A DNA stretch of 51,605 nucleotides, taken from contig SOIB01000061.1 in assembly GCA_004377355.1 (NCBI GenBank), positions 1 through 51,605 on the forward strand, written 5' to 3'. The translations under genes and the position numbers were made by a program. The notes beneath the pieces were generated by a model. It made no database searches. It saw only the letters and a list, made by a program, of their open reading frames with translations, and was not told where the DNA came from. This document shows, piece after piece, positions 11,809 to 33,680 of this stretch; the stretch's first letter is position 1; each line of letters begins with the position of its first letter. This stretch comes from Candidatus Stahliibacteriota bacterium (GTDB taxonomy: Bacteria; Hydrothermota; UBA3072).

Positions 11809-12990
11809 ATGTTATTATTATTATTTATCGGAACTGTTTTGAATTTCTACACCAACGAAGTAGTAATTAAGAGAGCCGATAGTACACTCATACCTTACCT
11901 GGGCATGGAGATAATGGATAATGATACTATCACTGTAAAAGATAGTTCCAAAGCAGAGATCTTGTATTCTGATAGTAGCACTTTATTCATCGATCAAAAC
12001 TCAACCATCACTATAGCGACAAGCAGTAAAAAAAGGAGTGTATTCTTATCTCTGGGAAGGATATGGGCAAAAGTAAAAGGTCTTTTAAAGGGAGAGTCTT
12101 TTGAGATAAATAATCCCATATCTGTTTCAGGAATTAGGGGAACAGAATTCATTGTTTCTTATAAAGATGATGAATCGGAAGTGAAGGTGCTGGAAGGAAA
12201 GGTTAACATCCGTGAGCTTATAACTGGTAAGGAAGCTATACTCGAACGGGAAAGAATGGCGAGGATAAAAAGGGGTATGGCAATTGAGATAATGAAATTT
12301 AAACTAGAGGACATAGAGCGATGGAACAAATGGAAAGAATCTCATCTAATGTTCCTTATCAAGAAAATTGAGAAAGCTTTGGAAAGAGGAAACATCTTAC
12401 AAGCATCTCTACTTATTGACCAGGGGTATGTCCTGGCTAGAAGATTAAGACTTATGGAAGAATATAGAAGCAAAATCGAAAAACTAAAAAGTGAATATGA
12501 ATTGATAAGACAAAAACAAGGAATGTTTATAAGTAAGATACAAGATTTAAAGTATAGTTTAAGAAAAATAAACCCCATTATACAGAAAACTGAGCCATTG
12601 TTAGTAGATTTAAAGGGATTGGTTGACCATCTTTTACTCAAAGATAGAGAACTGAAAGAATACTTAAAAGAAAATAAAAAACAAGAAGCAATTCAAATGC
12701 TTCCTTCAATAAATTTCCTGATGAATCAAATAGAATCAAAAATAAACAAAATCCCAAAAGGTGTATTAAGCAATGCTGTAATTGAAATAGAGAGAGATTA
12801 TAATATCGTTATAGAAATGGAATCACAAATTCCCTTAGAATCAGACATCAGGGATAAAATAATTAATACAAGCAGGAATGTAAAAGAAGTGCTAGATAAA
12901 GTAAGAAAACTAAAGCATCTGTTTGATAAAACCATAACTGATTACAATAATCTAAAAAATGACATCTCTCAACTGAAGCATAAATTATAA
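11809..12990 (+). CDS. FecR domain protein with C-terminal coiled-coil
   Basis: Signal-like N-terminus; DSSTLFIDQNSTITI and ISVSGIRGTEFIVSYKDDESEVKVLEGKVNI are FecR-like; upstream AAGGAG. Confidence 0.8.
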   Translation: MLLLLFIGTVLNFYTNEVVIKRADSTLIPYLGMEIMDNDTITVKDSSKAEILYSDSSTLFIDQNSTITIATSSKKRSVFLSLGRIWAKVKGLLKGESFEINNPISVSGIRGTEFIVSYKDDESEVKVLEGKVNIRELITGKEAILERERMARIKRGMAIEIMKFKLEDIERWNKWKESHLMFLIKKIEKALERGNILQASLLIDQGYVLARRLRLMEEYRSKIEKLKSEYELIRQKQGMFISKIQDLKYSLRKINPIIQKTEPLLVDLKGLVDHLLLKDRELKEYLKENKKQEAIQMLPSINFLMNQIESKINKIPKGVLSNAVIEIERDYNIVIEMESQIPLESDIRDKIINTSRNVKEVLDKVRKLKHLFDKTITDYNNLKNDISQLKHKL

Positions 12991-13715: not shown

Positions 13716-14795
13716 TTACTCAAGCACAACCGGCATAAGTAAATAAAGAATATCTTTTTTCTCACCCTCTATTATTACAGGTCTATTAGATTCTCCAAAT
13801 CTTAAAACTATATTCTTTGTATCGATGTAACGAAGAATTTCAATTAGGTATGCAGCACTTAGGGCAATGTTTATTTCTTTGCCATTGTATTCTCCACTAA
13901 TCTCTTCCCTGCCTTCACCAATCTCTGAAGAAGCTCCAAGAGCTAAATCTCCACCAAGTTCAATCATGATTGTCTTGGATTTATCATTAGAAAATACAGA
14001 AACTCTCTTTAAAGAAGCGGTAAAAGAATCTCTCTCAATTTTTAAAATGTTTTTGTTATCTTCGGGTATTGCAGATTTATAATTAGGAAAATCTACTTTA
14101 ATTAATCTTGAAACCATTGTAAATTTATCATTAATAAAACAAATGCGACTCTCATCGATTCCTATCCATACCTCATTAGTTTCTAAGGAAGAAACCTGTC
14201 TTAGTATCTTTGGTGGTATAACTATATTAAAAGATTCCTCTCCAAAATCTATCTCTACCTCACTAAATCCCAATCTAAAACTATCTGTTACTGCCAATTT
14301 TAATTTATGCTCACTATACTCCCATAACATCCCACTCATATTCCTTTTCGCAGAATCTTCAGGAACTATAAAAACTAATTTATCTATTTTACTTCTAATT
14401 TCTTCTATATTTACTTTATATGCGCTTTCCTTGTTTATATCAGGTTCTGAAGGAAAATCCTCCTCTTCCATTAATGGTAGATAGAAGTAACCTTGATCGT
14501 ATTCAACTTTTGCTCTATTCCCTTCTTTTATAAAAGTAGCTTTGCCTTTAATTTCTCTAATCATGGAGTAAAGTGTCTTAGCAGGTACTATTATTACTCC
14601 TTCTTCTTCGATATTGGCAAGGTTAGTCGTATAACTTAGTGATGTGTCAAGATCCGTCCCAAAAATATGTATTGCGCCATCTTTTGCTACTATACGAATA
14701 TTGCATAGAATAGGGAATGTCGTATGTTTTGGGATGACTTGATTTATTACACTTAATTCCTTCAAAAATTCATCTGATTCTATTGAAAATAACAT
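13716..14795 (-). CDS. dnaN: DNA polymerase III beta sliding clamp
   Basis: Beta-clamp pattern including FPILCNIRIVAKDGAIHIFGTDLDTSL and C-terminal RPVIIEGEKKDILYLLMPV; adjacent to dnaA. Confidence 0.95.
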   Translation of the reverse strand: MLFSIESDEFLKELSVINQVIPKHTTFPILCNIRIVAKDGAIHIFGTDLDTSLSYTTNLANIEEEGVIIVPAKTLYSMIREIKGKATFIKEGNRAKVEYDQGYFYLPLMEEEDFPSEPDINKESAYKVNIEEIRSKIDKLVFIVPEDSAKRNMSGMLWEYSEHKLKLAVTDSFRLGFSEVEIDFGEESFNIVIPPKILRQVSSLETNEVWIGIDESRICFINDKFTMVSRLIKVDFPNYKSAIPEDNKNILKIERDSFTASLKRVSVFSNDKSKTIMIELGGDLALGASSEIGEGREEISGEYNGKEINIALSAAYLIEILRYIDTKNIVLRFGESNRPVIIEGEKKDILYLLMPVVLE

Positions 14796-14864
14796 ATATT
14801 TCCTCCTATATAACTATTTTATATTCTTTTATTAAAATATAGTAGTTGTTGGGTATGGTAGAAA

Positions 14865-14947
14865 AGTGGATAACTAATAAAAATCTTCTATTACTTTGTT
14901 CACCTTCATTATATTTTTCTATAATACTGCTTAAAAGATGTTGATAA
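14865..14947. promoter_or_regulatory. weak candidate origin element: DnaA-box-like sites in dnaA-dnaN spacer
   Basis: TTATCCACt (revcomp of 14865-14873) and TTATCaACA (revcomp of 14939-14947), each one mismatch from TTATNCACA, in an AT-rich spacer. Confidence 0.3.
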
Positions 14948-14957
14948 AATTTATGAA

Positions 14958-16295
14958 TCATTTAACACCTCTAATTCCACCTTTTATCCTCTGGATATCC
15001 TCTTTTAATCTAACATTTTTTTTAATAAGCTGACTAATTTTATTATGAGAATATAATACAGTTGAGTGGTCCCTACCTCCAAGTTTATCACCTATTTCTT
15101 TAAGAGATAAATCCGTTAATTCTCTTGCAAGGTAAATTAAGATCTGACGGGCATTTGCTAAGCTTTTAGATCTCCCACTACCTTTTATTGAATCCACCGA
15201 TATTCTATAAAACTCTGATACCTCTTTAAGGATACTTTCAAGGGTTGGACGTTGGTCCTTTTTTATTATAATATCTGATAGAACTTTCTTTGCAGTATTT
15301 ATATCTATATCAGTTTTATAGATGGATGAGTGTGCCAGTAATTTTATTAGACAACCTTCAAGTTCTCTAATGTTCGACTCAATATTTGAAGCTATGAATT
15401 TCAGGATTCCATCGTCTATGTGTATATCATCTTCCTGAGTTTTCGCCCGAAGTATAGCCAGTCTGGTTTCAAAATCAGGAGGTTGAAGGTCAACCATTAA
15501 ACCCCAATGAAATCGAGAAATTAATCTTTCTTCAAGATCAGGGATATCCTTCGGGGGTCTATCTGATGTAATAACAATTTGTTTTTTTGCTTCAAAGAGT
15601 GAATTGAAAGTATGGAAGAATTCCTCCTGGAGTCTTTCCTTTCTTGCGAGAAAATGTATATCATCCATAAGAAGGAGATCTATCTCACGATACCTTTTTT
15701 TGAACTCAACTGTAGTATGTTCCTGAATGGATTTAATCATCTCATTTAAAAATTCTTCTGTTTGAGTGTAAAGGATACAGAGATTTGGGTAAAGGACAAA
15801 GACCTTATTGCCCGTTGCCTGAAGTAGATGGGTTTTTCCAAGCCCCACACCTCCATAAATGAATAATGGATTATATTCACGTCCGGGAGCATTTGAAACT
15901 GCCGTAGCAGCAGCAAAGGCAAATTTATTGTTATCACCCAACACAAAATTATCAAAGGTATATCTATCATGTAGATAAGTTTTCCTTTTATCCTGGATGC
16001 GAACTGTATGCTTCATGGGCTCTAATTTCTCCCTTCCACTCTTTTCTTTTACTAGAAAATGAATAGTGTAATTTTTGCCAGTTTCTTTTTTTATTGCAGA
16101 ACGAAGGTTCTCCATAAAATGTTCGCTTATCCAGTTTTCAGTGAATGTATTTGGAACTGTAAAATATACATTTTCATCCACTATATCTTCTATATCCAAA
16201 TTTGCAAACCAGGCATTAAAAGCAGATTCATTGAGTTCTTCTTGAAGATATTTTTTCGCTGATTCCCAATTAAATTTGACTTTTCTCCTACGCAT
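14958..16295 (-). CDS. dnaA: chromosomal replication initiator DnaA
   Basis: NPLFIYGGVGLGKTHLLQATGN Walker A, LLMDDIHFLARKERLQEEFFHTFN, LGGRDHSTVLYSHNKI DNA-binding signature. Confidence 0.98.
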   Translation of the reverse strand: MRRRKVKFNWESAKKYLQEELNESAFNAWFANLDIEDIVDENVYFTVPNTFTENWISEHFMENLRSAIKKETGKNYTIHFLVKEKSGREKLEPMKHTVRIQDKRKTYLHDRYTFDNFVLGDNNKFAFAAATAVSNAPGREYNPLFIYGGVGLGKTHLLQATGNKVFVLYPNLCILYTQTEEFLNEMIKSIQEHTTVEFKKRYREIDLLLMDDIHFLARKERLQEEFFHTFNSLFEAKKQIVITSDRPPKDIPDLEERLISRFHWGLMVDLQPPDFETRLAILRAKTQEDDIHIDDGILKFIASNIESNIRELEGCLIKLLAHSSIYKTDIDINTAKKVLSDIIIKKDQRPTLESILKEVSEFYRISVDSIKGSGRSKSLANARQILIYLARELTDLSLKEIGDKLGGRDHSTVLYSHNKISQLIKKNVRLKEDIQRIKGGIRGVK

Positions 16296-16428: not shown

Positions 16429-19400
16429 ATGGAAAGTAATAATAACCTGAATGAAAATATCAGGCAATTAAGAAATATATCTGAAAATATCTATTCCACA
16501 TTAAAGGATATTTCAGACGAACAAATAGGGTGGGCTGATGAACTGGAGAAGGTAAGAAGTAAGTTGAAAAATCTTAATGCTTCGATGTCAGTTATTAACA
16601 AGGCTTCTGACTCCCTTGGTGCTACCACTGGGAGGAATGAAGAACTACTATCCTTTGGACTAAGTCTTTCCAATGAGATTATGAAAAAGACGAAGAATTT
16701 CCTTCAAATTATTGATACCTTAAGCTATAAGCTTAATACATTAATAGGAAAGAGAGAAGATATTAACTCAATTGTTGAAAAGCTTTTATCTCTCAATCAG
16801 GCATCTGCAAATACTGCAAGAAATGCAGAAATTAAAGCTTATCAGGCGGGGTCGCAAGGTAGGGGTTTCGAGGTGGTTGCGAATGAACTGGGTAAACTTA
16901 CAGGAGAATCCCTCCGGATAGTTGATTCAATGATAACTTCTCTTGAAACACTACGAGATGAATCAAAGAAAATTGTTGACAGATTTAAAACTCTACAAGA
17001 TACACTCTCCCAATTCGAAGAAATTACAAATCAATTAGAAGAAAGTTCAAATGATTTGAAGGAAAAATTCTCTACTATAATTAATATTACAGATTGCCTT
17101 ATTGAATCACTTGATAGAATTAATACAAAGAGACAAGACATAGATTTAGTTGCTAATACAATGTTATCTTTATCCCAAAATTTTATATTGAAGGCAAGCA
17201 AGATTGATTTGTTATTAACACATAAAGAATCTGTTGGAGAAATTATTGAACATCTTGTCGAGCTACATCAGTATCTAAAGAGTAATAATTCACCTCTTCT
17301 TTTGAGTAATATACGACAATTGGATTCTGCATTAAATGCGATATTTAGATTAAATGAAAATAGTCGCGTTGATGTAGCAAATTTAAAGGGAGAACAAGTT
17401 TATAAAGAATTAGATTTTAATGAATTACAGGATATAAAGGATATTTTAAATAAAGCCATAGAAGAAATGAAAGGTGTAAAGGGGATTGTGCAATCTACAC
17501 TCAATAAATCAAAACAAGGAATAGATAGTATTAACAAGGTTAGAGTATTCATAGAACAAGAAAAAATAGATATGAAAGAAGTAACGGTTCTCCAGGAGAA
17601 TCTTTATATGAGGTCCAATGAACTGGGAAGGTTAGTCGAAAGAATAGATGACCTTTCTGATCAGTCAAGAGTGCTATCTCTATATGGGAAGATAGAGGGG
17701 TCGAGGATATCCAGTGATTTCATAGGACTCGAGTCAATTGTAAATGAGATGCATGCACTTTCTGGCGATTATTCGAAGGTAGCTAGCGAATTAAGTGTTT
17801 TCTTTGCCCCTGTTAAGGAAGAAATCGAAGAATTAGATAAGATGGTTCAAAAATTAAATGGAATAATTAACCGTTTAGGAGAAATGGCTATTGAAAGTGA
17901 AAATGCATTTAAGGGAAATGAAGAACAGATAAGATACCTAATAGAGATTTCTAATAGTATTAAATTATCTTTAGATAAGCAAAAGGATATTATTGCAAAA
18001 GCTACTGATTCATTCACCTGGATTACAGATGAAATCAATGAGAATGCACAGCTAATAACGGAACTTGAAAAAAGAATGGATAAGGAAAAGGAATTTGTGA
18101 ATAGTATTGTAAGGGAAAACTTAAGAGAAACTAAATCCTTAAACATTCTCGGGGATAAGAAACACACTGAGTTAAGAGTGTATCTCCAGGGTGATCCTTT
18201 AAGCCTTGATCCAGCCAGAGTGGGTGATGCTCCATCCAATAAGGTAGCCTCTAGTATACATCGAGGTCTCTTTGATTTTGGTTTCTCTGGAGGGGTCTAT
18301 CCTTTGATAGTAGAACGTTGGGATTTATCACCTGACGCATTAGAATGGAATTTTACTATCAGAGATGATGTCGTAAACCATAATGGTAAAAAAATTGATG
18401 CCGAGGATGTTAAATATTCCATTGATAGATTGAAAGGTGGTCCTAATAATTTCATTATTGAACCTATAGAAAGTATAAATGTGAAAGGCACATATTCATT
18501 AACTATAAAACTTAAAAACTTATTTATGCCTTTGATAACAAATCTTGCAACTGTTGGGGGTTCTATAATTTCAAAGGATAACTCTAGTGAAAATGATAAG
18601 AGAATTTCTGGTATAGGACCTTTCAGATTTGTCGAATGGTCCAATGATGAAGATATAATTCTGGAGGCTCATTCTGATTATATTTTTGGGGAACCATATC
18701 CCTCCCGTTTGGTGTACAAAAGAAGTGGAAGTGCTCTTGAATCTTTCAGAGAAAACTTGGTTGATATTGCTGTTGTTAGAGCTGATGAAGTCCCAATGAT
18801 AAAGAAGGATACAGAACTTAGGGATAGATTAATTTCTTCTGAGTTTTTAAACGTTAATTATATGGGTTTTAATTTCAAAAAAACAGATCTACCATTTAAT
18901 GATAAAAGGGTGAGACAGGCTCTTAATTATGCTGTAGATAATAGTGCGTTAATAGAAGAAACTGAATCAGGATTGGGAGCTATTTCACGTGGAATATTCC
19001 CTCCCGGTCTTTCTGTATATGATGCTAACCATAAAGGCTATGAGTATAATCTACATTTAGCAAGGGAGCTTTTAAAAGAAGCGGGTTATCCTGATGGGTT
19101 ACACGATGTGTATAAGTTGAGTATCAGTGATTCGCTTACAAATATTAATAGAGCAAAGTTTCTAAAAGAAGCATTTTCTGATATTGGGGTTCGTGTAGAA
19201 ATAGATGAATATCCGTGGGGTGAATTTTTAGAGATAGTACATGATGGCGAGCCTGAGCTTTTCTTGCTTGAATGGTCTGCCGACACCACCGATCCAAATA
19301 ATTTTATTTTTCCTCTATTCCACTCATCGTCAAAAGGAATAGGTGGTAACACCTTATTCTATTCTAATGAGAGTGTCGATTTGCTTATTGAAGAAGGACT

Positions 19401-19584
19401 AAGGGAGATAAATCCCTCCAAACGAGAAAGAATTTATAAGAAAGTAGAAAATATTATAGTTGAAGATGCACCAATGGTGTTTCTTACGCATTCAGTTAAT
19501 TTTACATTGGTCAATGAGCGAGTATTCGGGTTCAAACCTGACCCATTAAATTATACCCATTATGAATGGATAGGAGTACAGTAA
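16429..19584 (+). CDS. soluble MCP-like signalling protein fused to C-terminal SBP_bac_5 (peptide/nickel-type) solute-binding domain
   Basis: NAEIKAYQAGSQGRGFEVVANELGKLT aligns to the MCP hairpin tip; second degenerate hairpin DQSRVLSLYGKIEGSR; from about residue 579 HTELRVYLQGDPLSLDPARV...ERWDLSPDALEWNFTIRDDVVNHNGKKIDAEDVKYSIDR is family-5 SBP. No TM segment or signal peptide visible. Confidence 0.85.
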   Translation: MESNNNLNENIRQLRNISENIYSTLKDISDEQIGWADELEKVRSKLKNLNASMSVINKASDSLGATTGRNEELLSFGLSLSNEIMKKTKNFLQIIDTLSYKLNTLIGKREDINSIVEKLLSLNQASANTARNAEIKAYQAGSQGRGFEVVANELGKLTGESLRIVDSMITSLETLRDESKKIVDRFKTLQDTLSQFEEITNQLEESSNDLKEKFSTIINITDCLIESLDRINTKRQDIDLVANTMLSLSQNFILKASKIDLLLTHKESVGEIIEHLVELHQYLKSNNSPLLLSNIRQLDSALNAIFRLNENSRVDVANLKGEQVYKELDFNELQDIKDILNKAIEEMKGVKGIVQSTLNKSKQGIDSINKVRVFIEQEKIDMKEVTVLQENLYMRSNELGRLVERIDDLSDQSRVLSLYGKIEGSRISSDFIGLESIVNEMHALSGDYSKVASELSVFFAPVKEEIEELDKMVQKLNGIINRLGEMAIESENAFKGNEEQIRYLIEISNSIKLSLDKQKDIIAKATDSFTWITDEINENAQLITELEKRMDKEKEFVNSIVRENLRETKSLNILGDKKHTELRVYLQGDPLSLDPARVGDAPSNKVASSIHRGLFDFGFSGGVYPLIVERWDLSPDALEWNFTIRDDVVNHNGKKIDAEDVKYSIDRLKGGPNNFIIEPIESINVKGTYSLTIKLKNLFMPLITNLATVGGSIISKDNSSENDKRISGIGPFRFVEWSNDEDIILEAHSDYIFGEPYPSRLVYKRSGSALESFRENLVDIAVVRADEVPMIKKDTELRDRLISSEFLNVNYMGFNFKKTDLPFNDKRVRQALNYAVDNSALIEETESGLGAISRGIFPPGLSVYDANHKGYEYNLHLARELLKEAGYPDGLHDVYKLSISDSLTNINRAKFLKEAFSDIGVRVEIDEYPWGEFLEIVHDGEPELFLLEWSADTTDPNNFIFPLFHSSSKGIGGNTLFYSNESVDLLIEEGLREINPSKRERIYKKVENIIVEDAPMVFLTHSVNFTLVNERVFGFKPDPLNYTHYEWIGVQ

Positions 19585-19585
19585 T

Positions 19586-19990
19586 ATGGAATTATTGAGT
19601 TTCGCACTTGATGATAAATACTTTGGTGTCCTTTTAGATAAGGTGAAAGAAATAGTGAAGGGAACAAGAGTTACTCCAGTTCCCCTAACTCCTCCACATA
19701 TTGAAGGGGTGATGAACCTACGGGGTGATCCCATTTCAATCATTGACTTAAAAAAGAAATTGGGATTTGATAGCAAAGCAGAATCTCTTGATATCATACT
19801 ATGTTATATAAAGGATTCTGTTGTTGGCCTTAGAGTGGATAAAATTCTTACTATAAATAAGTTTTCACCTGACGCATTTAAGAAAGTCCCTAAAAGCATT
19901 GAAAGGAATATAGAATCCAAATATATAAAAGGGATTGTTAAAATTGAAGAGGACAAATATATAATAATTGATGTAGATCAGTTAATTTGA
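19586..19990 (+). CDS. cheW: CheW-like coupling protein
   Basis: GVLLDKVKEIVKGTRVTPVPLTPPHIEGVMNLRGDPISIIDLKKKLGF is classic CheW. Confidence 0.92.
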   Translation: MELLSFALDDKYFGVLLDKVKEIVKGTRVTPVPLTPPHIEGVMNLRGDPISIIDLKKKLGFDSKAESLDIILCYIKDSVVGLRVDKILTINKFSPDAFKKVPKSIERNIESKYIKGIVKIEEDKYIIIDVDQLI

Positions 19991-20004: not shown

Positions 20005-20370
20005 ATGGGTGTAAGAGTTTTGATAGTTGATGATGCAATATTTATGAGAAAAATGTTGGGGGATATTCTAAGAAAAGGTGGATATGAGATTTGTGCTGAG
20101 GCAGAGAATGGAGCTGAAGCTGTTAAGAGATATTTAGAATACAAACCTGACCTTGTAACAATGGATATTATAATGCCTGATATAAGCGGGATCGATACTG
20201 TGAAAGAAATAATAGAGAAAGATAGAGATGCGAAGATAGTGATGATTAGTGCAATGGGTCACCAGAGCCTGGTAGTTGAAGCAATACAGGCTGGTGCTAA
20301 AGATTATGTAGTTAAACCTTTCCAACCGTCAAGGGTACTTGAAGCTGTTCAGAGAGTTTTAAAGTTATAA
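20005..20370 (+). CDS. cheY: single-domain CheY-like response regulator
   Basis: VLIVDDAIFMRKML, DLVTMDIIMPDISG phospho-acceptor Asp, KDYVVKPFQPSRV; GGAGG SD upstream. Confidence 0.93.
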   Translation: MGVRVLIVDDAIFMRKMLGDILRKGGYEICAEAENGAEAVKRYLEYKPDLVTMDIIMPDISGIDTVKEIIEKDRDAKIVMISAMGHQSLVVEAIQAGAKDYVVKPFQPSRVLEAVQRVLKL

Positions 20371-22173
20371 ATGAAAGGGGATAGAGATAAGTATATAGAA
20401 CTCTTCAGGGAAGAAGCTAGGGAATATATTGAGCGATTGAATAACCTCTTAATTGAGATGGAAGAAAATTCCACGAGTGGAGAGGTTATTAGCGAGGCCT
20501 TTAGAATATTTCATACTCTTAAGGGTATGGCAGCATCATTGGGATATAAGGAAATTGAAAGTATTTCTCACGATTTAGAGGAGCGTCTTGAAGGACTTAA
20601 AAAATATGGCAAAGGAGTGAACAAGGAGATAGTTGATAGAATATATAAAGGAATGGATAATATAGAAGATCTTGTGGAGGAGATTGGAAGAGCAGAGGGT
20701 GAGAAAGGGAAGGAAGATATAACATTGAAGCGTTCCCCATGGGTGAAGATTACCCTCAATAAAGATACCGAGTTACCTGCTGCGAGTGTAACGGTTATAA
20801 TAAAAAGAATAGAACAAGAAGAGAACATAGAAGAGATCCAACCTTCCTTCGAGGAAATTAAGGCAGGGAAAATTAAGGACACCTTTTGGGTTAGATGTTC
20901 TAATGAGAAGAAAGTGATGGAGATGTTAGTTTCTTTGAATGAAGTAGAAGAAGTTTCAATTGAAAGGAAAAAAGAGGAAAGCAGAGTCCCCAAGGTAGGA
21001 CTTGGAGGTATCCGTGTTAATGTTGAACTGTTAGACCGTTTACAGAATATCGTTGGAGAATTGGTTGTTTTTTCATCTCAATTATCAACTTTATTAAATG
21101 ATGAGGATAAAAAAATTAAGGGATTCCTAGATGTGCATTATAGGACTCTTAAAGAGTTACAAAATGTTGTTACAGAAATAAGACTTGTTCCTCTTTCATT
21201 AATATTTAATAAATTTCCTCGCTATGTGGGGGATTTGAGTGTGGAACTTGGTAAAGAAGTATCTATTGATATTTTTGGTTCCGATATAGAGGTTGATCGT
21301 TCGCTCCTTGAAGGTATAAGTGAACCCTTAATACATCTCGTGAGAAATGCAGTTGGTCATGGGATTGAAACCCCTGGGGAGAGGAAAAAACTTAATAAAC
21401 CTACAACCGGGAAGGTAACAGTTTCTGCAAAGAGATTAAGAGGGGATATTATGATAGAAATCATTGATGATGGTAAAGGTATAGATGAGAAAGAGGTACT
21501 TTCCGCCGCACTCAGGAAGGCTTTAGTAAAGAAGGAAGAGGTAGATTCTCTTACAAGGAAGGAAATTCTCCATTTTCTTTTTATACCTGGTTTTACAACC
21601 GATGAGAAAGTGAGCGAGGTTTCCGGTCGTGGAATAGGTCTTGATGTAGTAAAGCAGATTGTAAGGTCTGTGGGAGGCAGTGTTGATATTAAAACAGAAA
21701 AGAATAAAGGAACAACCATAACAATGAAGATGCCTCTCTCTATGGCTATAATAAGAGTTTATTTATTTCAATCAGATGGGCAACTTTTTGCACTTCCAAT
21801 GACATTTGTTGATGAGACATTGATGATTCCAGGAAGGTTTTTTTCTCACCTTATGGGACAAGAGGTTATGTTGCTTCGAAAGGAAATTTTACCGGTTTAT
21901 CACTTTAAAAAAATAATGAAAAATCATACAGATTATAGAAGCAAGGATACAATTCTTTCATGTTTAGTTGTTGAGGTGGAGAATGAGCGATTTGCACTCA
22001 CAGTTGATAAATTTAGAGGTAGTTGTGATGCTGTAATAAAACCTCTTCCAGAACCTTTAAATGCAATTAAGGAATTAACGGGTATTACTATTATAGGGGA
22101 CGGTGAACCGTGTCTAATAATTGATCTACCAAGCTTTAAATATAGGAGGATATATGAGAATACAGGATCTTAA
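20371..22173 (+). CDS. cheA: chemotaxis histidine kinase CheA
   Basis: Hpt AFRIFHTLKGMAASLGY; HATPase EPLIHLVRNAVGHGIETPGER, DDGKGID, SGRGIGLDVV; C-terminal CheW-like domain. Confidence 0.95.
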   Translation: MKGDRDKYIELFREEAREYIERLNNLLIEMEENSTSGEVISEAFRIFHTLKGMAASLGYKEIESISHDLEERLEGLKKYGKGVNKEIVDRIYKGMDNIEDLVEEIGRAEGEKGKEDITLKRSPWVKITLNKDTELPAASVTVIIKRIEQEENIEEIQPSFEEIKAGKIKDTFWVRCSNEKKVMEMLVSLNEVEEVSIERKKEESRVPKVGLGGIRVNVELLDRLQNIVGELVVFSSQLSTLLNDEDKKIKGFLDVHYRTLKELQNVVTEIRLVPLSLIFNKFPRYVGDLSVELGKEVSIDIFGSDIEVDRSLLEGISEPLIHLVRNAVGHGIETPGERKKLNKPTTGKVTVSAKRLRGDIMIEIIDDGKGIDEKEVLSAALRKALVKKEEVDSLTRKEILHFLFIPGFTTDEKVSEVSGRGIGLDVVKQIVRSVGGSVDIKTEKNKGTTITMKMPLSMAIIRVYLFQSDGQLFALPMTFVDETLMIPGRFFSHLMGQEVMLLRKEILPVYHFKKIMKNHTDYRSKDTILSCLVVEVENERFALTVDKFRGSCDAVIKPLPEPLNAIKELTGITIIGDGEPCLIIDLPSFKYRRIYENTGS

Positions 22174-22771
22174 AGAGTTACAATTAGATGGAATAAAGGA
22201 ATCTGCTAATATTGGTAGTGGACATGCAGCAACAGCATTGAGTCAGATGCTGGGGAAAGAGGTTAGTGTTGAGGTACCTAAAATAGAGATTATTCCCATT
22301 GAAAAGACTCCAGAACTTCTCGGTAGAGATGCTGGTATTATAGTAGCCTCTCTTACTAAATTCTTTGGTGATGTTACTGGAAGGACTCTTATTGTAATGA
22401 GTGATGATAATGCGAAAACATTAGTCAAAATTCTTTTAAACAAAGAAATGTCTCGTGATGTAGTGATTGATGATATGGGAATCTCTTCACTTAAAGAGGT
22501 TGCCAATATCCTGTGTAGTTCTTATCTTAACGCTATTTCTGAATTCCTTGGTCTTTTGTTATTACCATCGGTACCAGTAATCATTAGAGATGATTTCGGA
22601 GCGATTATCAGTAGTGTCTATTTAGAATTTAGTGGGAATGAAGAATTCGTATTCTGCGTTAAGACTATCTTTCACTTTAAAGACCCGAAGAAAGAATTAG
22701 AAGCCTATCTTTTACTAATACCAGATACTGGTGGTTTAACTATTATTTTGAAAGCAATGGACCTTTTATAA
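22154..22771 (+). CDS. cheC: CheC-family CheY-P phosphatase
   Basis: LDGIKESANIGSGHAATALSQML and SSLKEVANILCSSYLNAIS: both E..N active-site helices. AGGAGG-ATG at 22154 (ORF track 22121). Confidence 0.9.
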   Translation: MRIQDLKELQLDGIKESANIGSGHAATALSQMLGKEVSVEVPKIEIIPIEKTPELLGRDAGIIVASLTKFFGDVTGRTLIVMSDDNAKTLVKILLNKEMSRDVVIDDMGISSLKEVANILCSSYLNAISEFLGLLLLPSVPVIIRDDFGAIISSVYLEFSGNEEFVFCVKTIFHFKDPKKELEAYLLLIPDTGGLTIILKAMDLL

Positions 22772-25405
22772 TTGAGAATTTCAGAACAAGAAAAGGGTAT
22801 ACTTAGATTTTTTGCAAAAAAGATTGACCTCAATGATCCTGGTGCTCATAATAATCTTGCCTGTGTTTATTTCAATAAGGGCTTAATAAAGGAGTCTATA
22901 GAAGAGTTGAAAAAAGCTCTAGAGATAGAACCTAATTTCACTACAGCGAAGAATAACATTGAATATATATACAGGACAACCGGGTATTACGATGAGAGCA
23001 TTCAAAAATTAAAAGAGAAAATTCGAGCAGATCCAGATGACTGGAAAGCAAGATTAGAATTAGCGCGGTCATATAAGAGTACCGGAGATTATTATAAAGC
23101 GATTACACATTATAATAAATATCTTAATATCTACCCAAAAGATACAAACGCATTGTTAGAGATGGGTATCTCTTGCAAGGCTATAGGTTTCTATGAGGTT
23201 GCGATTGAAAATTTCAAGAAAGCTTTGCGTATACGTGATGACTTCACTCCTGGACATAAGTATTTAGGAGAGGTATATTATAATCTGGGACTCTTTTCAC
23301 AAGCTATAATGGAACTAAAAAAAGCAATCAAGCTTGACCCTAAAGATGCAGAAATCTACTTTTTACTCTCCTTTGCATATGGTGAGGAGGATAGATTTAA
23401 TGATGCAAAGAAGGCGGGAGATAAGGCGATAGAGTTGAATCCAAGATACGCTAAGACAGAGCCCAATCTTGGGTTAGGGATATACCGGCAGAAGGGATAT
23501 CAAGATTTCATTTCTGTATCGGAAATAAAGATAAAAGATAAACCATTTTTCAGCCATTATACTATGGGACTTACCTATAAAAATAGAGGAATGTTTGAAG
23601 AATCCCTTCGAGAACTTCATAGGGCAGAAGAAGCGGATCCAGAGAATCCACTTGTGAAGGAGCAGTTAGGTGAGGTATTTCTCTTTATGGGTAAGAACGA
23701 GGATGCCATTTCTGCATATCTGATGGCTATTAAAGAGGACCCTGATTCTCCAAAACTTGCTAATAATATAGGTATTGCATGGCATAGACTTGGTCGTCTT
23801 AATGAAGCAATATCTTGGTATGAACGTGCAATTTCAAATGATGAAAATTATGCAGTTTCCTGGAATAATCTCGGTATAGTGAATTATCATTCTGGAAATC
23901 CAGATAAAGCCTTTAAGTATTTCCAGAAAGCACACAAAATAAATCCCGATTATCTCGACACCTATCTAAACCTTGGAATTATTTATATGAATAAGGGACA
24001 TTATGATAATGCAGAGAAGTTGTTTAAGAAGACAATCCAGAAAAAAGAGGAATATTCCCTACCATATAATTATCTTGGCTCTGTGTACTTAAATACCGAT
24101 AGATTTGGAGAAGCAATTCATTGTTTCCAGATGGCAATTAATCGGGATAATAGTTATGATGAGGCATACTATAATTTGGGATTTGCATTTTCACGCATTG
24201 GTAAGTATGATAAAGCATTAGAGGCAACAAAGAAAGCAATGGAAATAAATCCATTTTATACAAATAATATGTTTAAGTTAGGTCTTGATATCTATTCCGA
24301 ACAACTGGATATCATGGTATCTAGAGAATTCACAGAGGAGATGGGGATTGGTGGGGTTACCGGTGAAGAAGCTGAAGAAGAAGAGATTTTTGAGAACCTA
24401 TTCATCGCTTCAAAGGAGATGCCAAGTAATTTAGAAGAAGAAATTGAGAAAGCAGAATCTCTCTACGGAAAAGAAAAACTGGATGAAGCGTTAGAGCTAC
24501 TTAACGAAATAAGGAGTCAGGAACCGGATAATGCAAAAATTCTACTTCTTTTGGGAAAAGTATATCATAGAAAAGGATTGCTGGGTGAAGCAAAGGACAT
24601 ACTCTTAGATTTAGTACCTGAGAATGAAGAGGCACTGCGAACTCTAGCATCAGTTTATCTGGAAAATAAGGAGTTGAAGCGCGCTAATGAAATGGCAAAA
24701 ATACTAAGGGAGAAAAACAAGAATGATCCCTTCTCTTATTTTGTTTCTGCGCGGTATCATGAACATGGAAAGGAATTTGAAAAGGCAGTTAAGATATTAA
24801 AGAGTTGTCCTAACTGGAGAGATGAGCCAAGTATATTACAGGAAATTGCTTCTCTTAATTTTTCTTACAGGAATTTAGAGGAAGCATTATCATATATCTT
24901 GAGAAGTATTTCAATTTCTTCATCTTCCGAATCATATTTAATGTTAGCAAGGATTGAAATCAGACAGAAAAAATTTGAATCTGCCCAGATAAATTTAATA
25001 AAAGCCATAAAAAAGGACCCGAATAATAAGGTTGCCTTAAGATTGTTAGTAAGAACAAGATTAGAACTTGAAGATTATGATAGAACAATTGAAGCCGCTA
25101 AGAATGCACAAGAAGTAATTAAGGCAGATAGTAAAATTGCTTTTTGGTTAGGTAAAGCTTATTATAAGAAAGGAATGATAGAGAAGGCGATAGAAAGTGT
25201 AAAACAGGCAATTAGTTTTGATGAAAAGAATATCCAAGCATACAGGACACTTGCTTCGCTTTATTTTAACGCAGGTAAATTTAAGAAAGCAGAAAATTTA
25301 TGGGAGACTATAATTGAGCGTTCTGATGACAACAAGATTATAAAACAGGCAAAAGACGCTCTCCTTAGTCTTCTTCGTCTTCGAAAGATTACAGGGGGGA
25401 TATAA
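22772..25405 (+). CDS. large TPR-repeat protein (877 aa)
   Basis: Many TPR units such as AHNNLACVYFNKGLIKESIEELKKALEIEPNF and AVSWNNLGIVNYHSGNPDKAFKYFQKAHKINPDY; TTG start directly after the cheC stop. Confidence 0.9.
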   Translation: MRISEQEKGILRFFAKKIDLNDPGAHNNLACVYFNKGLIKESIEELKKALEIEPNFTTAKNNIEYIYRTTGYYDESIQKLKEKIRADPDDWKARLELARSYKSTGDYYKAITHYNKYLNIYPKDTNALLEMGISCKAIGFYEVAIENFKKALRIRDDFTPGHKYLGEVYYNLGLFSQAIMELKKAIKLDPKDAEIYFLLSFAYGEEDRFNDAKKAGDKAIELNPRYAKTEPNLGLGIYRQKGYQDFISVSEIKIKDKPFFSHYTMGLTYKNRGMFEESLRELHRAEEADPENPLVKEQLGEVFLFMGKNEDAISAYLMAIKEDPDSPKLANNIGIAWHRLGRLNEAISWYERAISNDENYAVSWNNLGIVNYHSGNPDKAFKYFQKAHKINPDYLDTYLNLGIIYMNKGHYDNAEKLFKKTIQKKEEYSLPYNYLGSVYLNTDRFGEAIHCFQMAINRDNSYDEAYYNLGFAFSRIGKYDKALEATKKAMEINPFYTNNMFKLGLDIYSEQLDIMVSREFTEEMGIGGVTGEEAEEEEIFENLFIASKEMPSNLEEEIEKAESLYGKEKLDEALELLNEIRSQEPDNAKILLLLGKVYHRKGLLGEAKDILLDLVPENEEALRTLASVYLENKELKRANEMAKILREKNKNDPFSYFVSARYHEHGKEFEKAVKILKSCPNWRDEPSILQEIASLNFSYRNLEEALSYILRSISISSSSESYLMLARIEIRQKKFESAQINLIKAIKKDPNNKVALRLLVRTRLELEDYDRTIEAAKNAQEVIKADSKIAFWLGKAYYKKGMIEKAIESVKQAISFDEKNIQAYRTLASLYFNAGKFKKAENLWETIIERSDDNKIIKQAKDALLSLLRLRKITGGI

Positions 25406-26415
25406 TGCCTATAGAAGCACCTATCTCAGAGTTGGCTCTTTTTGATTTATTACAGTTGATATCTCTTACTGCTAAAAGTGGAATACTTAGTTTGACAGAG
25501 AAAGAAACCACAAAAACATACACTATTTATTTCGATAATGGGAAACTCGTTTATATTGATCTAACTGATAAAATTAGGGAGGAGATGGTAAAGCGTGAAT
25601 TAGTGGATAATGATGAAGTTTATTCTTTGGAAGCTGATGACTTAATCGAATATATTGTAGAAAGGCAGTTGATGAGTAGTAATACGTTTAATATATTATA
25701 TAGAAAAATAGCTATGGAGGTTATATATTCTCTTTTCACAATTAATTCTGGGCAAATTAGTTTTAAGGAGAGCGATTTTTCCGTTCCTTACTCCCTGGAT
25801 TTGGGGGTGAAGATTGAGAATGTAATCCTGGAAGCTGCAAGAAGGATTGATGAGATATCAAAGATGGAGGAGATAATACCCTCCCGCGATATTGTTCTGG
25901 AGGTTTCTTCAGATATAATTGGGATGGAGTCGATAAATCTTGACCGTATGGAGTGGGAGCTTATCTCTCTTATTGATGGAAAGAGAACCATAGCTGATCT
26001 TATAAGAGAGAAAGGGGATGAATTAAAAGTTTTGAAATCGCTCTATGGATTAATCATGACTGGGATTGTTACAGAAAAGAGGATAGAGTTAAATAACATT
26101 GTGAAAGATGAAGTTGCGAAGGACGATGAGATTACAGGAAAGCTACGGGAACTTAGAAAGCTATGGAGCAAAGGAGAATATGAAAAAGGTATTGAAATAC
26201 TTTCTCATTTAAGAAAAAGGCATCCAGATGATACGAGAATTATTTATGAATTAGGTTTTTATTATCTTGCTACGGGGAGATTTAAAAGAACCATTTCTGA
26301 GTGGGATTCATATCTTCTTTTAAGTGAAAATGAACTACAAAAGGAAGAAATAAAGGAAAATCTTGAGTTGGTCATGGAGTTAATTAAGAAGATTTCCAGT
26401 AGGGAGGTGTCCTGA
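25405..26415 (+). CDS. DUF4388 (PATAN-like) domain protein with C-terminal TPR
   Basis: ELALFDLLQLISLTAKSGILSLTEKETTKTYTIYFDNGKLVYIDL is DUF4388-like; C-terminal TPR-like helices; 1-bp overlap with upstream gene. Confidence 0.78.
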   Translation: MPIEAPISELALFDLLQLISLTAKSGILSLTEKETTKTYTIYFDNGKLVYIDLTDKIREEMVKRELVDNDEVYSLEADDLIEYIVERQLMSSNTFNILYRKIAMEVIYSLFTINSGQISFKESDFSVPYSLDLGVKIENVILEAARRIDEISKMEEIIPSRDIVLEVSSDIIGMESINLDRMEWELISLIDGKRTIADLIREKGDELKVLKSLYGLIMTGIVTEKRIELNNIVKDEVAKDDEITGKLRELRKLWSKGEYEKGIEILSHLRKRHPDDTRIIYELGFYYLATGRFKRTISEWDSYLLLSENELQKEEIKENLELVMELIKKISSREVS

Positions 26416-27140
26416 TGATGCAAGATGGACTGCAAAGTGATGCTAATTCATTAGATGTTCTCTTGTCCCTTGCTGATCTATATGTGCAGAATGATCTTAT
26501 TGAGGAAGCCAAGGCACTTCTGAAGACTGCTATTGAGCAGAATAAGGGTGCAGTAGAACCATATTGTAGTTTGGGGAAAATATACCTAAAGGAAGGTAAT
26601 AGAGAAAGGGCAATTAAGATTTTGAAGCAAGCAGAGATGATAGAACCTGAGAATAAAATTATTCAGGATTTACTTCAAGCAACAGGGAAAGAGGAAGTAG
26701 TAGAAGAACTAAAAGTGGTAGAAAGAGCGGAAGAGAAAGGGGAATTAGAGGAGATAGAAGAAGTAAGCGGGGTCCCTTTAGAAGATTTAATAAAAAGAGA
26801 ATTGGATAAGTTATTAAAAGAGGAAGGTATTATGGGGATTATACTCGTTGACGAAGGTGGATCTCTTATATATGCAGAACTGAATCTACCCCTCGATGAA
26901 GAATCTACGGGAGCGATAATCAATACCATTTACAATAGGATAAATGAAACAGTAAAAGGCTTTGATCTAGGGGACTTAGAGGAAGTAATTTTTGAGTTAC
27001 CTGGCGGTAACATATTTGTTCTTGGGACACTTTCTATAAGGTTTATCGTTCTTGTAAAGAGAGATATTCACATTGCGAGTTTAGAAGGGGAAATCAGGGA
27101 GATTTTTGAAAGAACAAAAGCAATTCTGGAGGTGGATTAA
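26415..27140 (+). CDS. TPR plus Roadblock/LC7 domain protein
   Basis: N-terminal TPR (EPYCSLGKIYLKEGNRERAIKILKQAEMIEPEN); C-terminal GIMGIILVDEGGSLIYAELN...IINTIYNRINETVKGFDLG Roadblock pattern. Confidence 0.78.
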   Translation: MMQDGLQSDANSLDVLLSLADLYVQNDLIEEAKALLKTAIEQNKGAVEPYCSLGKIYLKEGNRERAIKILKQAEMIEPENKIIQDLLQATGKEEVVEELKVVERAEEKGELEEIEEVSGVPLEDLIKRELDKLLKEEGIMGIILVDEGGSLIYAELNLPLDEESTGAIINTIYNRINETVKGFDLGDLEEVIFELPGGNIFVLGTLSIRFIVLVKRDIHIASLEGEIREIFERTKAILEVD

Positions 27141-27472: not shown

Positions 27473-27952
27473 TTGCAAGACCATATTATTCTATCCCGAG
27501 ACATGCAGAAAAAGATAAATTATTCCTTAGAAAGACTCATTATTGAGACTAATGCTCTTCATGCTGTGTTTGCGACTAAGAGTGGTGAAATTTTGGAGCA
27601 TCGAGGTTTAAATATAGGAACGCAGATAGTCTCAATCACAGCCTTACTTGCAGGAATTTTCAATACTACTAAGGAGATGGCAAAAATCATTGATGAGCAT
27701 AATTTTAACCAGTTTTTTATTAAGGGTCGGGAATGGAAATTATTCTATCAAGACATTTCGTCTCTATTTATTCTTATTGTATTATTTAAAGATAGAACAC
27801 TTCTTGGCACAGTTAAGTTATCGAGTGAGAGGTTTGCCAGAAGGGTGAAAAGAATATTTGAGAAGGAAAACACTAAGGGGATTGAAACAAGAGTCTTAAG
27901 TGGTGAAGGTGCTCCCGAAGAGGATTTACTTGAGGAGTTATTCAAGGAATGA
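27473..27952 (+). CDS. Roadblock/LC7-like protein
   Basis: ALHAVFATKSGEILEHRGLNIGTQIVSITALLAGIFNTTKEMAKI; TTG start abutting upstream stop. Confidence 0.65.
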   Translation: MQDHIILSRDMQKKINYSLERLIIETNALHAVFATKSGEILEHRGLNIGTQIVSITALLAGIFNTTKEMAKIIDEHNFNQFFIKGREWKLFYQDISSLFILIVLFKDRTLLGTVKLSSERFARRVKRIFEKENTKGIETRVLSGEGAPEEDLLEELFKE

Positions 27953-30900
27953 GAAAGCGGATAATAATCTGGATATTCATTATACTCCTTCTCCTATTCT
28001 TTCATCTAATATCTGGACCTTTACATAATAGAGCAGAAATTTGGTTAAAAAACAAACTCATTACTATTCTTCCAGAGGGGAGTAGTATTGGTAATATAGA
28101 GTGGAATATTTTATCTTCTCTAAAAGCAGATTCTGTGGTTGTAAGAGAACTTGGTTTTATATCCAGCGTTGAAGTACAGTATACCCTCTTTGGTTATTTA
28201 AGGCGTAGAATTAAGAGTGTTATACTCTACGACCCAAAATTTAATATTTCATTTTCGCATTCTAGCGAAGTTAAAGAAAGGGGCATACCCAGCCTTTTCT
28301 ACATAGAAGAGCTTTCTGTTTTAAATGGTTACATTGAATGGGAAGGTCATGAATTCCTGCTGAATGGGAGTGGAAGATTGTTTTCTACAGAGAATCAAAT
28401 CGTCTTCGATATTTTTAACCTCGTAGGCACAGTTGATAATCTCCAGTTTAATCTTAGTGATAGTCGGATGAATCTCGAACAATCCGGCTCTGAGATTGAT
28501 ATAAGAGAACTGCGTGTAGGATATTCAAATTTAAGGTTGTTTGGACGGACAGATGAAAGTATTAAAGGAGAAGGTAAAATCAATTTAAAGGACTTAAAGA
28601 CATTATGGGGTGTTGAGGGAGAGGGGGTTGTTGAAGTAGAATTCGTATATGACTCCTTATTTAGATTTGAAGGAAAGAGTGGACCTTTATCGATTGCAGG
28701 CTACCAATTAAAGCCCATTAATTTTCATGGGACCCCAGATTCTATATGGATAAGTGCATATCCATTTAGAGGTTATTTTAAATATGATGGGAAAATTTCT
28801 TGTGGCTTTGAGTTAAGTGATTTAAATATGAATGAGTTTAATAAGGATTTTCCTATATCAAAAGTGAATGGAATGTTGAATTTCACATATTTTAATAGGG
28901 ATAGTTATAGTGTGGAATCTACACTTTCTGGTAGTATAATGGGTTCCTCTCTAAAAGATCTAAGGATAAAGTTTGATAAGCTTGGAGAAAGAGTTATTGT
29001 TGAGCAGCTGGAGGGACACGTGAATAACGGAAAGATATCCTTTAGCGGTGAATATGATAGAATCTTAAAGGGAAATCTTTTTGTTGAGGGAGTCGATGTT
29101 TCATCTCTATTTAAGTATTTCGGAATTAATGGAAAATCTATAGCTTATGCTGATATAAGTCTTAAGGATAAGATATATGGAGTTTTCTCTCTTGATAGTA
29201 TTCAATATGGTCCAATAGAAATAGGATTGGTGAATGGCAATATTGATTTCCTTCAAACGGAAAGGAAGTTCCAGGGAGAGCTATCTTTTGTCATACAAGA
29301 TGTTATGCTACCGAAAGGAAAATTATTTGATATAGGAGAAGGTGTCATTAGACTGGGAGAGCAGGATATTGTTTTGATTGGTTTATTCAAGAGAGAAGAT
29401 AAACAAATGGAATATTCATTTAAATACTTACAGGATTGTATCGAAATTGAAAAACTTAACATTACTTACCCTGGTGGTTGGTTAACGTTAGATTCCAGTT
29501 TTTCTATCTCAACAGATAAGGGTATAAAGATTGAGGAAGTAGTATTAAAGGGGAATAAAGATGAAGAAGTTAAGTTATCTTTAGAGATTTATGAGAGTGA
29601 AATTATTGGAACTATAATGTTGGATGAGTTTAATCTTCGTATTTTACAAGAGTTTGAAATTACTAATCTACCAATTTCTGGTAATCTAGGTGGAGTAGTT
29701 ACCTTAGCAGGAAAAACAAATACCCCCGAGATAAATTTTGATGGAAATAGCAAAGCGAAATGGAAAGGAGAATCTATTGGAGACTCATTAAAGCTCAACT
29801 TATCGTATTTTAATAAGAACCTCATAATTAACGATATTACTTTATTCGAAAATAATCATTACTCCAGATTTAATGGAGAGATTGACATAATTAATGGTTC
29901 GTTGGATATAAAAGCAGGATTTGATAGAGGCGGTAGATGGGTGTTCTATCCTATACGTGAATATTTGGATACAAGGAGACTGGAAGTCAACGGAAATATT
30001 AGAGTAAAGGGGAAGCTTCTTACTCCTTTAGTTTATGGAGAGATAAAGATATTAAAAGGTAATATATTGCTGGTGAAACCAGGGATTAGAATTGAGGATT
30101 TGGAAGCTATTGTAGAATTTAAAGGTAATGAAGCGATATTGGAGTCAGCTCGAGTCTATATGAGTGAGGGAGTAATTGATGCTAAAGGAATATATAATAT
30201 CGAAAAAAAATCTTATAACTTTAAAATAAATGTTATGAAGACACCACTAAACTGGCAATATGTGAATGCTATAATTGATGGTGATATAAATGTGAGTAAA
30301 AAAGAGGAGAGAATAAGGATTGAGGGTGAAATAGACTTAAGCAGAACAATAGTTACCATGCCTTTCAGAACCACAGGAAACGGAGGCATAAGACCTAAAA
30401 ATCTTTATTTAGATATAATGATTGATGCATCTAAGGGTAATGTATGGGTTCGTAATGATATGGCTGATATGGAATTATTAGGAGAGGTTGGTGTACAATA
30501 CGATGGGGGATTATTGCTACTTTCTGGGGATCTATCAGTAAAACAAGGGAACTTTTATTATTTATATCGTTCTTTTGATGTGGTTAAAGGTGAATTCAAC
30601 TTCAGGAGTTCTCCAGAACTTAATCCAGATGTTACCATCAAAGCAAAAACCATAATCCAGGATAGGGATACGGTATTTTTGGATGTATCTGGAACAATGA
30701 GAACGCCAATATTCGAATTATACTCAAAGCCAGCACGATCAGTAGCAGATATAATTACTCTTTTAAATCTTAACCTCTCATGGGAAGATCTATCCTCCCT
30801 TAGGGCTATAGAAGAATCAATAACAGAGGCAGTCTTTAATTACTGGGTAAGACATACATTTTCAAGAAGATTCAAAGAACAATTTGGTATTGATTTAGTA

Positions 30901-31110
30901 GAGATGAGAGGGGAGAGCGGACATTATGAAATTGTTTTAGGGAAGTATATCACAGATAGATTATTTATTAAAGCAAGGACCGATATTCTATCCTATGAAA
31001 TATCTGAAGTACATGCAGAATATAGATTAAGAAGATGGGGATCCATCGTAGCTGAGAACGACTTTTCGGGGGATACGAGGCTTATATTCAAATTAGGATG
31101 GCGGTATTAA
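27949..31110 (+). CDS. TamB/DUF490-like translocation and assembly module protein
   Basis: N-terminal TM anchor, long beta-rich middle, C-terminal RSVADIITLLNLNLS...GKYITDRLFIKART...LIFKLGWRY; 4-bp ATGA overlap with upstream gene. Confidence 0.85.
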   Translation: MRKRIIIWIFIILLLLFFHLISGPLHNRAEIWLKNKLITILPEGSSIGNIEWNILSSLKADSVVVRELGFISSVEVQYTLFGYLRRRIKSVILYDPKFNISFSHSSEVKERGIPSLFYIEELSVLNGYIEWEGHEFLLNGSGRLFSTENQIVFDIFNLVGTVDNLQFNLSDSRMNLEQSGSEIDIRELRVGYSNLRLFGRTDESIKGEGKINLKDLKTLWGVEGEGVVEVEFVYDSLFRFEGKSGPLSIAGYQLKPINFHGTPDSIWISAYPFRGYFKYDGKISCGFELSDLNMNEFNKDFPISKVNGMLNFTYFNRDSYSVESTLSGSIMGSSLKDLRIKFDKLGERVIVEQLEGHVNNGKISFSGEYDRILKGNLFVEGVDVSSLFKYFGINGKSIAYADISLKDKIYGVFSLDSIQYGPIEIGLVNGNIDFLQTERKFQGELSFVIQDVMLPKGKLFDIGEGVIRLGEQDIVLIGLFKREDKQMEYSFKYLQDCIEIEKLNITYPGGWLTLDSSFSISTDKGIKIEEVVLKGNKDEEVKLSLEIYESEIIGTIMLDEFNLRILQEFEITNLPISGNLGGVVTLAGKTNTPEINFDGNSKAKWKGESIGDSLKLNLSYFNKNLIINDITLFENNHYSRFNGEIDIINGSLDIKAGFDRGGRWVFYPIREYLDTRRLEVNGNIRVKGKLLTPLVYGEIKILKGNILLVKPGIRIEDLEAIVEFKGNEAILESARVYMSEGVIDAKGIYNIEKKSYNFKINVMKTPLNWQYVNAIIDGDINVSKKEERIRIEGEIDLSRTIVTMPFRTTGNGGIRPKNLYLDIMIDASKGNVWVRNDMADMELLGEVGVQYDGGLLLLSGDLSVKQGNFYYLYRSFDVVKGEFNFRSSPELNPDVTIKAKTIIQDRDTVFLDVSGTMRTPIFELYSKPARSVADIITLLNLNLSWEDLSSLRAIEESITEAVFNYWVRHTFSRRFKEQFGIDLVEMRGESGHYEIVLGKYITDRLFIKARTDILSYEISEVHAEYRLRRWGSIVAENDFSGDTRLIFKLGWRY

Positions 31111-33279: not shown

Positions 33280-33680
33280 AGAAATTAGAGGAAGAAATTT
33301 CTTTTGGGGGGAAGCTCTCATTACGAAGGATGATATTCCGTGTTATCTTTATAATAGTATTGGGTGCAATTTTGATAATAACAGGGACCTACTTTAGATG
33401 GGATAAATGGATAATTGGGGGGGTTCTACTTCTTGCAGGGTTTGTAACACAAGCCTGGTCGAGTCTTATAAGCCTTATCGGAAGTATACCTGGCGTGGGT
33501 CATGTTATTGTTAAGTTCCTTGCATTACCACTACTTTTAATAATAAATGGTATAGGGAATATAATTGCTTTTTTAGCTATCAAGTTAGGATATAAGAAAG
33601 AAATATTAGATACAAGGCTCCTTACCTGGGCTTTTGCCCTTGGGGCAATAATTGGATTTATCATAGGAGAGTTATTATGA
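33264..33680 (+). CDS. small multi-TM membrane protein, unknown function
   Basis: Several hydrophobic helices; 16-bp overlap with comM and 4-bp overlap with the next gene. Confidence 0.7.
   Translation: MADEVEKLEEEISFGGKLSLRRMIFRVIFIIVLGAILIITGTYFRWDKWIIGGVLLLAGFVTQAWSSLISLIGSIPGVGHVIVKFLALPLLLIINGIGNIIAFLAIKLGYKKEILDTRLLTWAFALGAIIGFIIGELL

Follow-up and report, generated by a model that had tools for sequence, protein, structure and literature searches.

A candidate soluble single-chain chemoreceptor with a cytosolic SBP_bac_5 domain in the phylum WOR-3/Caldifarciminota

Described systems closest to the fusion

Soluble single-chain (tandem) MCPs occur naturally, for example in Rhodospirillum centenum (Berleman and Bauer 2005; Wuichet and Zhulin 2010, cited in PMC4692393), and are called unexplored where PMC4692393 deals with them. 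That source also describes an engineered single-chain Tsr, which signals and which was built because the subunits of a receptor dimer occupy different environments, at the trimer axis and at the periphery (PMC4692393). On the SBP side, SgrR and DsvR are transcription factors that combine an HTH with SBP_bac_5 and use the SBP domain as a cytosolic sensor (PMC13060122), and SBP Pfam domains have already been noted as sensor domains of cytosolic signalling proteins (PMC9602780). FrzCD of Myxococcus xanthus, a cytoplasmic MCP, belongs to a Che-like system that controls motility on surfaces in an organism lacking flagella (PMC12077210). In Escherichia coli, Tap and DppA pair an MCP with a family-5 SBP as two proteins, the loaded SBP contacting the transmembrane (TM) receptor in the periplasm.

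We analysed a window of 51,605 nucleotides (contig SOIB01000061.1 of assembly GCA_004377355.1, Candidatus Stahliibacteriota bacterium), which contains at 16429..19584 on the + strand an MCP-MCP-SBP_bac_5 fusion receptor of 1051 aa, identified from its ORF, Pfam, orthologs and an AF2 model. Like the tandem MCPs of the R. centenum type, for which a function in the Che lattice is presumed, it has a pair of MCP signalling domains within a single soluble chain; judged by their description rather than by sequence, it is set apart from them by a complete C-terminal SBP_bac_5 domain and by tips that have diverged in charge. In SgrR and DsvR, too, SBP_bac_5 is the sensor at the C-terminus of a regulator in the cytosol (PMC13060122), whereas the fusion would control CheA through MCP hairpins rather than bind DNA. 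Pfam and NCBIfam searches found no N-terminal HTH of the SgrR type in the fusion, whose N-terminus consists of MCP helices, and its NCBIfam SgrR/DsvR-type match is weak (23.9 bits against a cut-off of 476). An earlier annotation of the window made from its letters alone, hereafter the sequence-only reading, had suggested an SBP repurposed as an intracellular regulatory module, an idea for which SgrR and DsvR provide the precedent (PMC13060122).

With DppA, OppA and GbpA the fusion shares the fold and the Asp that binds the ligand N-terminus, but it is cytosolic and MCP-fused, has neither signal peptide nor cognate permease and has lost Arg355. FrzCD, a cytoplasmic MCP of non-flagellar surface motility, resembles the fusion in belonging to a Che-like system; unlike the fusion, it has a DNA-binding N-terminus, a di-HAMP and a single MCP domain, with no SBP and no tandem hairpins. 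What Tap and DppA divide between two proteins is in the fusion one cytosolic chain. Each half of the architecture has a precedent, and a literature search with little reach into subscription journals found no paper describing the combination of MCPsignal and SBP_bac_5. In this phylum, most of whose members are known through metagenome assemblies, a fold familiar from periplasmic binding proteins would thus serve within the cytoplasm as the immediate input domain of a chemosensory kinase pathway.

The fusion frame and its tandem signalling hairpins

The reading frame at 16429-19584 (+) is uninterrupted. Its stop-to-stop frame opens one codon 5′ of the ATG, so that no earlier start could supply a signal peptide. 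Within the coding frame, a Kyte-Doolittle window scan (a plain hydropathy window rather than a trained predictor) detected no TM segment or signal peptide in the fusion protein or in 28 orthologs, and the highest 19-residue mean in the fusion protein was 1.22. The receptor is soluble, cytosolic and full-length. These results agree with the sequence-only reading, which had placed the ligand module inside the cell and had named a missed signal peptide or TM helix as a possible objection; we looked for both, and the hydropathy scan and the frame start exclude them. Its description of an SBP domain fused directly to signalling helices, and not acting as a separate periplasmic partner, was likewise borne out by Pfam and PDB alignments in one frame.

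The same reading had assigned residues ~1-578 to MCP-like helices, which holds; these residues, however, comprise two MCP signalling domains in tandem and not one. Hairpin 1 (residues 1-285, tip ~130-151; 16429..17283, +) was identified by Pfam, PDB search and model match, and hairpin 2 (residues 291-568, tip ~415-445; 17299..18132, +) by profiles, PDB search and the AF2 model. MCPsignal (PF00015) matched the window protein in two stretches with 51.3 bits (cut-off 34.6, Pfam). In a whole-genome profile scan, PF00015 matched two separate places of the same ORF in most orthologs checked, which rules out one long MCP domain in residues 1-578. Both copies exceeded the cut-off in five orthologs (G003, G016, G017, G019 and G020), and the second copy of the window protein, at 17563-18021, scored 26.5 bits, under the 34.6 cut-off. 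Each half of the ortholog alignment was also made into a profile of its own; both profiles matched ordinary MCPs, among them those of Paenibacillus, Lachnospiraceae and Azospirillum, and the profile of hairpin 2 alone reached ~88 bits on ordinary Paenibacillus MCPs. The best PDB match of hairpin 2 was the Thermotoga receptor 2ch7 (107 bits over profile positions 343-585), and those of hairpin 1 were the soluble receptor 3g6b and 6s18.

The AF2 model of the whole protein, a monomer model in which domain placement is unreliable, had a mean pLDDT of 84.8 and a pTM of 0.65. It contains helices at residues 2-285, 291-317, 331-425 and 434-568, followed by the alpha/beta SBP domain. DSSP assigned residues 2-285 of this model to one helix, as a failed hairpin would be. 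A separate model of residues 1-300, in contrast, fits MCP hairpins over their full length (9a69, TMq 0.88; 3g67, TMt 0.79), and its Foldseek match to 2ch7 (TM 0.66-0.71) spans 292 columns; residues 2-285 therefore form a hairpin. The four helical legs measure ~135-140 residues each in the AF2 model, and this equality fits the requirement of a single-chain four-helix bundle. With two MCP signalling domains in one chain and no TM segment, the protein has the make-up of a soluble single-chain MCP.

We then compared the two tips at the Tsr positions E385, R388 and Asn381, placed by alignment. In 53 control MCPs from other phyla, the E385 position is Glu in all 53 and the R388 position Arg in 48. 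In hairpin 1 these positions are Lys in 26 of 28 and His in 22 of 28 sequences, respectively, the window protein having K136 and Q139. Hairpin 2 keeps the control pattern, with Glu in 29/29 and Arg in 25/29 (E423 and R426 in the window), and is without the Gly-rich GxxGxGF turn, Tyr replacing Asn381 in 29/29. By these alignments the fusion family looks like a natural case of diverged single-chain halves. Homodimeric receptors hide per-subunit roles, and a soluble single-chain receptor is a tractable object for the role of each MCP dimer subunit in the trimer of dimers.

A strict methylation-site consensus occurs in only 1/29 family members, compared with 31/53 control MCPs; an MCP on another contig of the source genome (C44) has seven strict sites. 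The receptor operon contains no CheR or CheB, and together with the near-absence of methylation motifs this makes ordinary adaptation unlikely. The label 'methyl-accepting' is thus doubtful for this family, although the signalling domain is of MCP type, and the receptor may be a level sensor that works without adaptation.

The SBP domain, its predicted pocket and competing readings

The SBP_bac_5 domain occupies residues 578-1051 (18160..19581, +). PF00496 matched residues 623-969 with 238.3 bits (E 1.9e-70; Pfam cut-off 32.4), and PDB chains of family-5 binding proteins could be aligned to residues 577-1049, as expected from the complete domain that the sequence-only reading had seen in residues ~579-1051. 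In Foldseek the domain model matched 5u4o with a TMt of 0.90 (E 3e-32), and it also matched DppA 1dpp (0.76), glutathione-binding 3m8u, OppA, MppA and NikA-type proteins.

By sequence alignment, D600, D901 and D952 fall at or near the peptide site of DppA and OppA. D600, which we take to lie near a ligand-contacting strand of OppA, is Asp in 52 of the 53 fusions compared with 1 of 25 standalone SBPs. The position of DppA Arg355, the clamp for the dipeptide C-terminus, is Asp or Glu in 42/53 fusions and Arg in 0/53; Arg355 is among the two residues changed in PDB entry 8z1z (DppA R383D+D436R). W949 is kept in 52/53 and is far more variable in the standalone relatives. DppA Asp408 forms a salt bridge with the amino terminus of the ligand (PMC3295651), and its equivalent D952 is Asp in 51/53 fusions compared with 5/25 standalone relatives. 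The dipeptide clamp of the DppA/OppA type, Asp408 plus Arg355, is therefore incomplete in the alignment, its Asp being kept and its Arg lost. From this pairing of a kept acid with a lost base, our best guess is that the ligand carries a positive or amino-terminal group, and D600 as a further acid nearby suggests a more cationic or longer ligand. By the same guess, the domain would not be expected to bind a free dipeptide in the DppA manner.

Neither a signal peptide in the protein nor a cognate Dpp/Opp permease in the source genome was found, as a transport SBP would have. The only BPD_transp_1 pair in this 95%-complete genome is, on the basis of sequence and neighbours, of sugar type and lies beside a family-1-like SBP, so that the fusion's SBP domain is without a transporter to serve. 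We accordingly rejected a role as transporter partner, no Dpp/Opp permease having been detected in the source genome. Its only other SBP_bac_5 protein (L001, 1393-3315 of contig C44) is a predicted lipoprotein with a C-terminal TonB_C. Frames of the size of this SBP plus TonB_C protein (~680-735 aa) recur across the phylum (L178, L179, L182, L184, L185, L189 and L197); the combination of an SBP with a TonB C-terminus is unusual in its own right.

In our view the fusion is fairly probably a natural, soluble pseudo-dimer made of a single MCP chain, in which the SBP domain at the C-terminus detects a solute in the cytosol and controls how active CheA is. The two hairpins of one polypeptide would pair as a covalent pseudo-dimer, giving a bundle of four helices whose two tips lie together at one end, and the SBP_bac_5 domain would sit at the opposite end, where membrane receptors have their HAMP and TM part. 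Binding of a ligand, of the class that we infer above, would close the two SBP lobes and alter the bundle. This change would in turn, via CheW, shift autophosphorylation of the operon CheA, with CheY carrying the output and CheC stripping the phosphate.

The sequence-only reading had suggested an intracellular peptide or related ligand, and a Dpp/Opp-like sensor of cytosolic peptide pools, for instance those released by proteolysis or by recycling of the wall, is a possibility to which we give less than even weight. The nearest solved relatives bind di-/oligopeptides and glutathione, and the N-terminus-binding Asp is retained as D952; the exchange of the C-terminal clamp Arg, mostly for acids, and the extra acid at D600 point away from it, and the ligands of family 5 include, besides peptides, nickel complexes, opines and further solutes. 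A peptide is thus no more than a candidate ligand, one half of the expected site being conserved and the other lost. The missing Arg355 also fits an SBP domain that is a dead structural or docking module, serving as a partner platform or for array spacing in a constitutive or methylation-independent CheA scaffold. Such a module would explain why there is no transporter partner and no known ligand, and some SBP_bac_5 proteins such as HbpA2 keep the fold and lose peptide binding (PMC3295651). However, the Asp408 equivalent, W949 and D600 are nearly invariant over the 53 fusions and variable in standalone relatives, and among orthologs the SBP domain is clearly better conserved than the helical legs, which makes a dead module unlikely.

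An artefact, either mis-assembly or annotation joining separate MCP and SBP genes or a missed secretion signal placing the SBP outside, deserves mention because the window comes from a 211-contig metagenome assembly; we give it practically no credence. The full-length architecture occurs in 44/147 genomes of the phylum WOR-3/Caldifarciminota (counted by hand from per-genome rows), covering 13 families and including two single-contig genomes, and this excludes the mis-assembly that the sequence-only reading had asked to be checked. Two further genomes hold the fusion cut by contig ends. Across main-clade orthologs, two MCP domains and SBP5 lie in one frame, no TM segment appears in 29 orthologs, and the stop just 5′ of the ATG leaves no room for a longer N-terminus. 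In a tree of the SBP domains of 53 fusions and 25 standalone SBPs from the same phylum, the fusions fall on one side of a branch with support of 99/98, present in all 200 bootstrap trees, from which the fusion probably arose once. Identical architectures, which the earlier reading had raised as a possible objection, are numerous within the phylum, yet we found none described in the literature.

Named relatives are MAGs of candidate division WOR-3 (for which the NCBI name is now Caldifarciminota), TA06, Stahlbacteria, Edwardsbacteria and UBP2, and relatives under other labels, such as Cloacimonadota, are probably mislabelled. Some families (f11, f36) have a second, divergent fusion copy (L158, L160, L164, L170 and L174) with strong SBP scores and a weak or undetected second MCP domain, which by profile scores suggests diversification or decay of the signalling half. 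A 1020-aa frame with an SBP match (L200) was rejected as a further fusion, because it is a long frame in high-GC DNA that encloses a lipoprotein-like SBP.

The che operon and its motility context

The receptor gene is the first in the order receptor-CheW-CheY-CheA-CheC-TPR-DUF4388-TPR-roadblock-roadblock, which is kept over much of the phylum. In the window, all on the + strand, it is followed by CheW (19586..19990) and a CheY-like single-domain response regulator (20005..20370), both assigned by Pfam and as conserved neighbours, by CheA with Hpt, P2, dimerisation, HATPase and CheW domains (20371..22173; Pfam and genome scan), and by a CheC/CheX-type phosphatase whose start codon is uncertain and whose ORF overlaps cheA (22121..22771; Pfam and neighbour comparison). 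The same two approaches identified a large TPR protein of 877 aa (22772..25405) and a DUF4388 (PATAN-type) protein (25405..26415), both conserved in the operon, a TPR plus Roadblock/LC7 protein (26415..27140) and a Roadblock/LC7 protein with a sub-threshold Pfam match (27473..27952). By the same means we assigned a TamB-like protein (27949..31110, +), whose gene comes next, 3′ of the operon, in the closest relatives and which may be outside the pathway.

The operon CheA is the only CheA detected in the source genome, and a genome scan found exactly one CheA in 11/12 genomes tested. The receptor gene does not adjoin cheA in three genomes (G019, G034 and G050). Given its conservation across the phylum and its adjacency to the only detected CheA, the fusion receptor is probably a core internal sensor of the cell.

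Flagellar FliG was absent from 12/12 genomes, the source genome included, in a search that was positive in four flagellated control species, and a flagellar output was rejected on this ground; the source genome being a 211-contig draft, absences from it are provisional. PilB/PilT-type ATPases were present in 12/12 genomes. A second locus of the source genome (L147, 4040-16111 of contig C123) contains PilT, an MglA-like GTPase, a DUF4388-like protein, CheR, CheD, CheB and TPR, together with a TM-containing MCP and two CheW, these assignments being by eye from sequence except for CheR, PilT and MCP. As it holds no CheA, this cluster presumably depends on the CheA of the receptor operon. Because the genome encodes type IV pili, roadblock proteins and an MglA-like GTPase and no flagellum was detected, the pathway is likely to act on type IV pilus motility or cell polarity. 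The fusion is a specific candidate for the chief sensor behind non-flagellar motility in WOR-3/Caldifarciminota.

A more far-reaching proposal, which we offer tentatively and think less probable than a simple pseudo-dimer, is that the family represents a new class of intracellular receptor. It would be a pseudo-dimer that is obligate, asymmetric and complementary in charge (K136/H139 in half 1, E423/R426 in half 2), in which one half would serve the trimer axis and the other contact CheA and CheW; under the control of a cytosolic SBP whose pocket is acidic and may bind amines, it would be the principal input to the only CheA of the phylum's non-flagellar motility system. If so, the asymmetric pseudo-dimer would be a natural experiment on the inside and outside roles of chemoreceptor tips, which the engineered single-chain Tsr was built to study.

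Several other genes were noted in the source genome. A multi-pass membrane protein of 690 aa with GAF and a C-terminal MCP domain lies at 3580-5652 of contig C198 (L122), and several relatives have MCP frames close to it in length (666-688 aa). In the window, dnaN and dnaA (13716-16295) lie immediately upstream of the receptor operon and point away from it, an arrangement shared only with close relatives, so that the che operon may be close to the origin of replication. A protein at 11809-12990 is weakly similar to LipL45/FecR-type lipoproteins (NCBIfam 54 bits, far under the cut-off), and a 925-aa protein at 33677-36454 has peptidase-MA-like and TolB-like propeller regions with a weak Omp85-type match.
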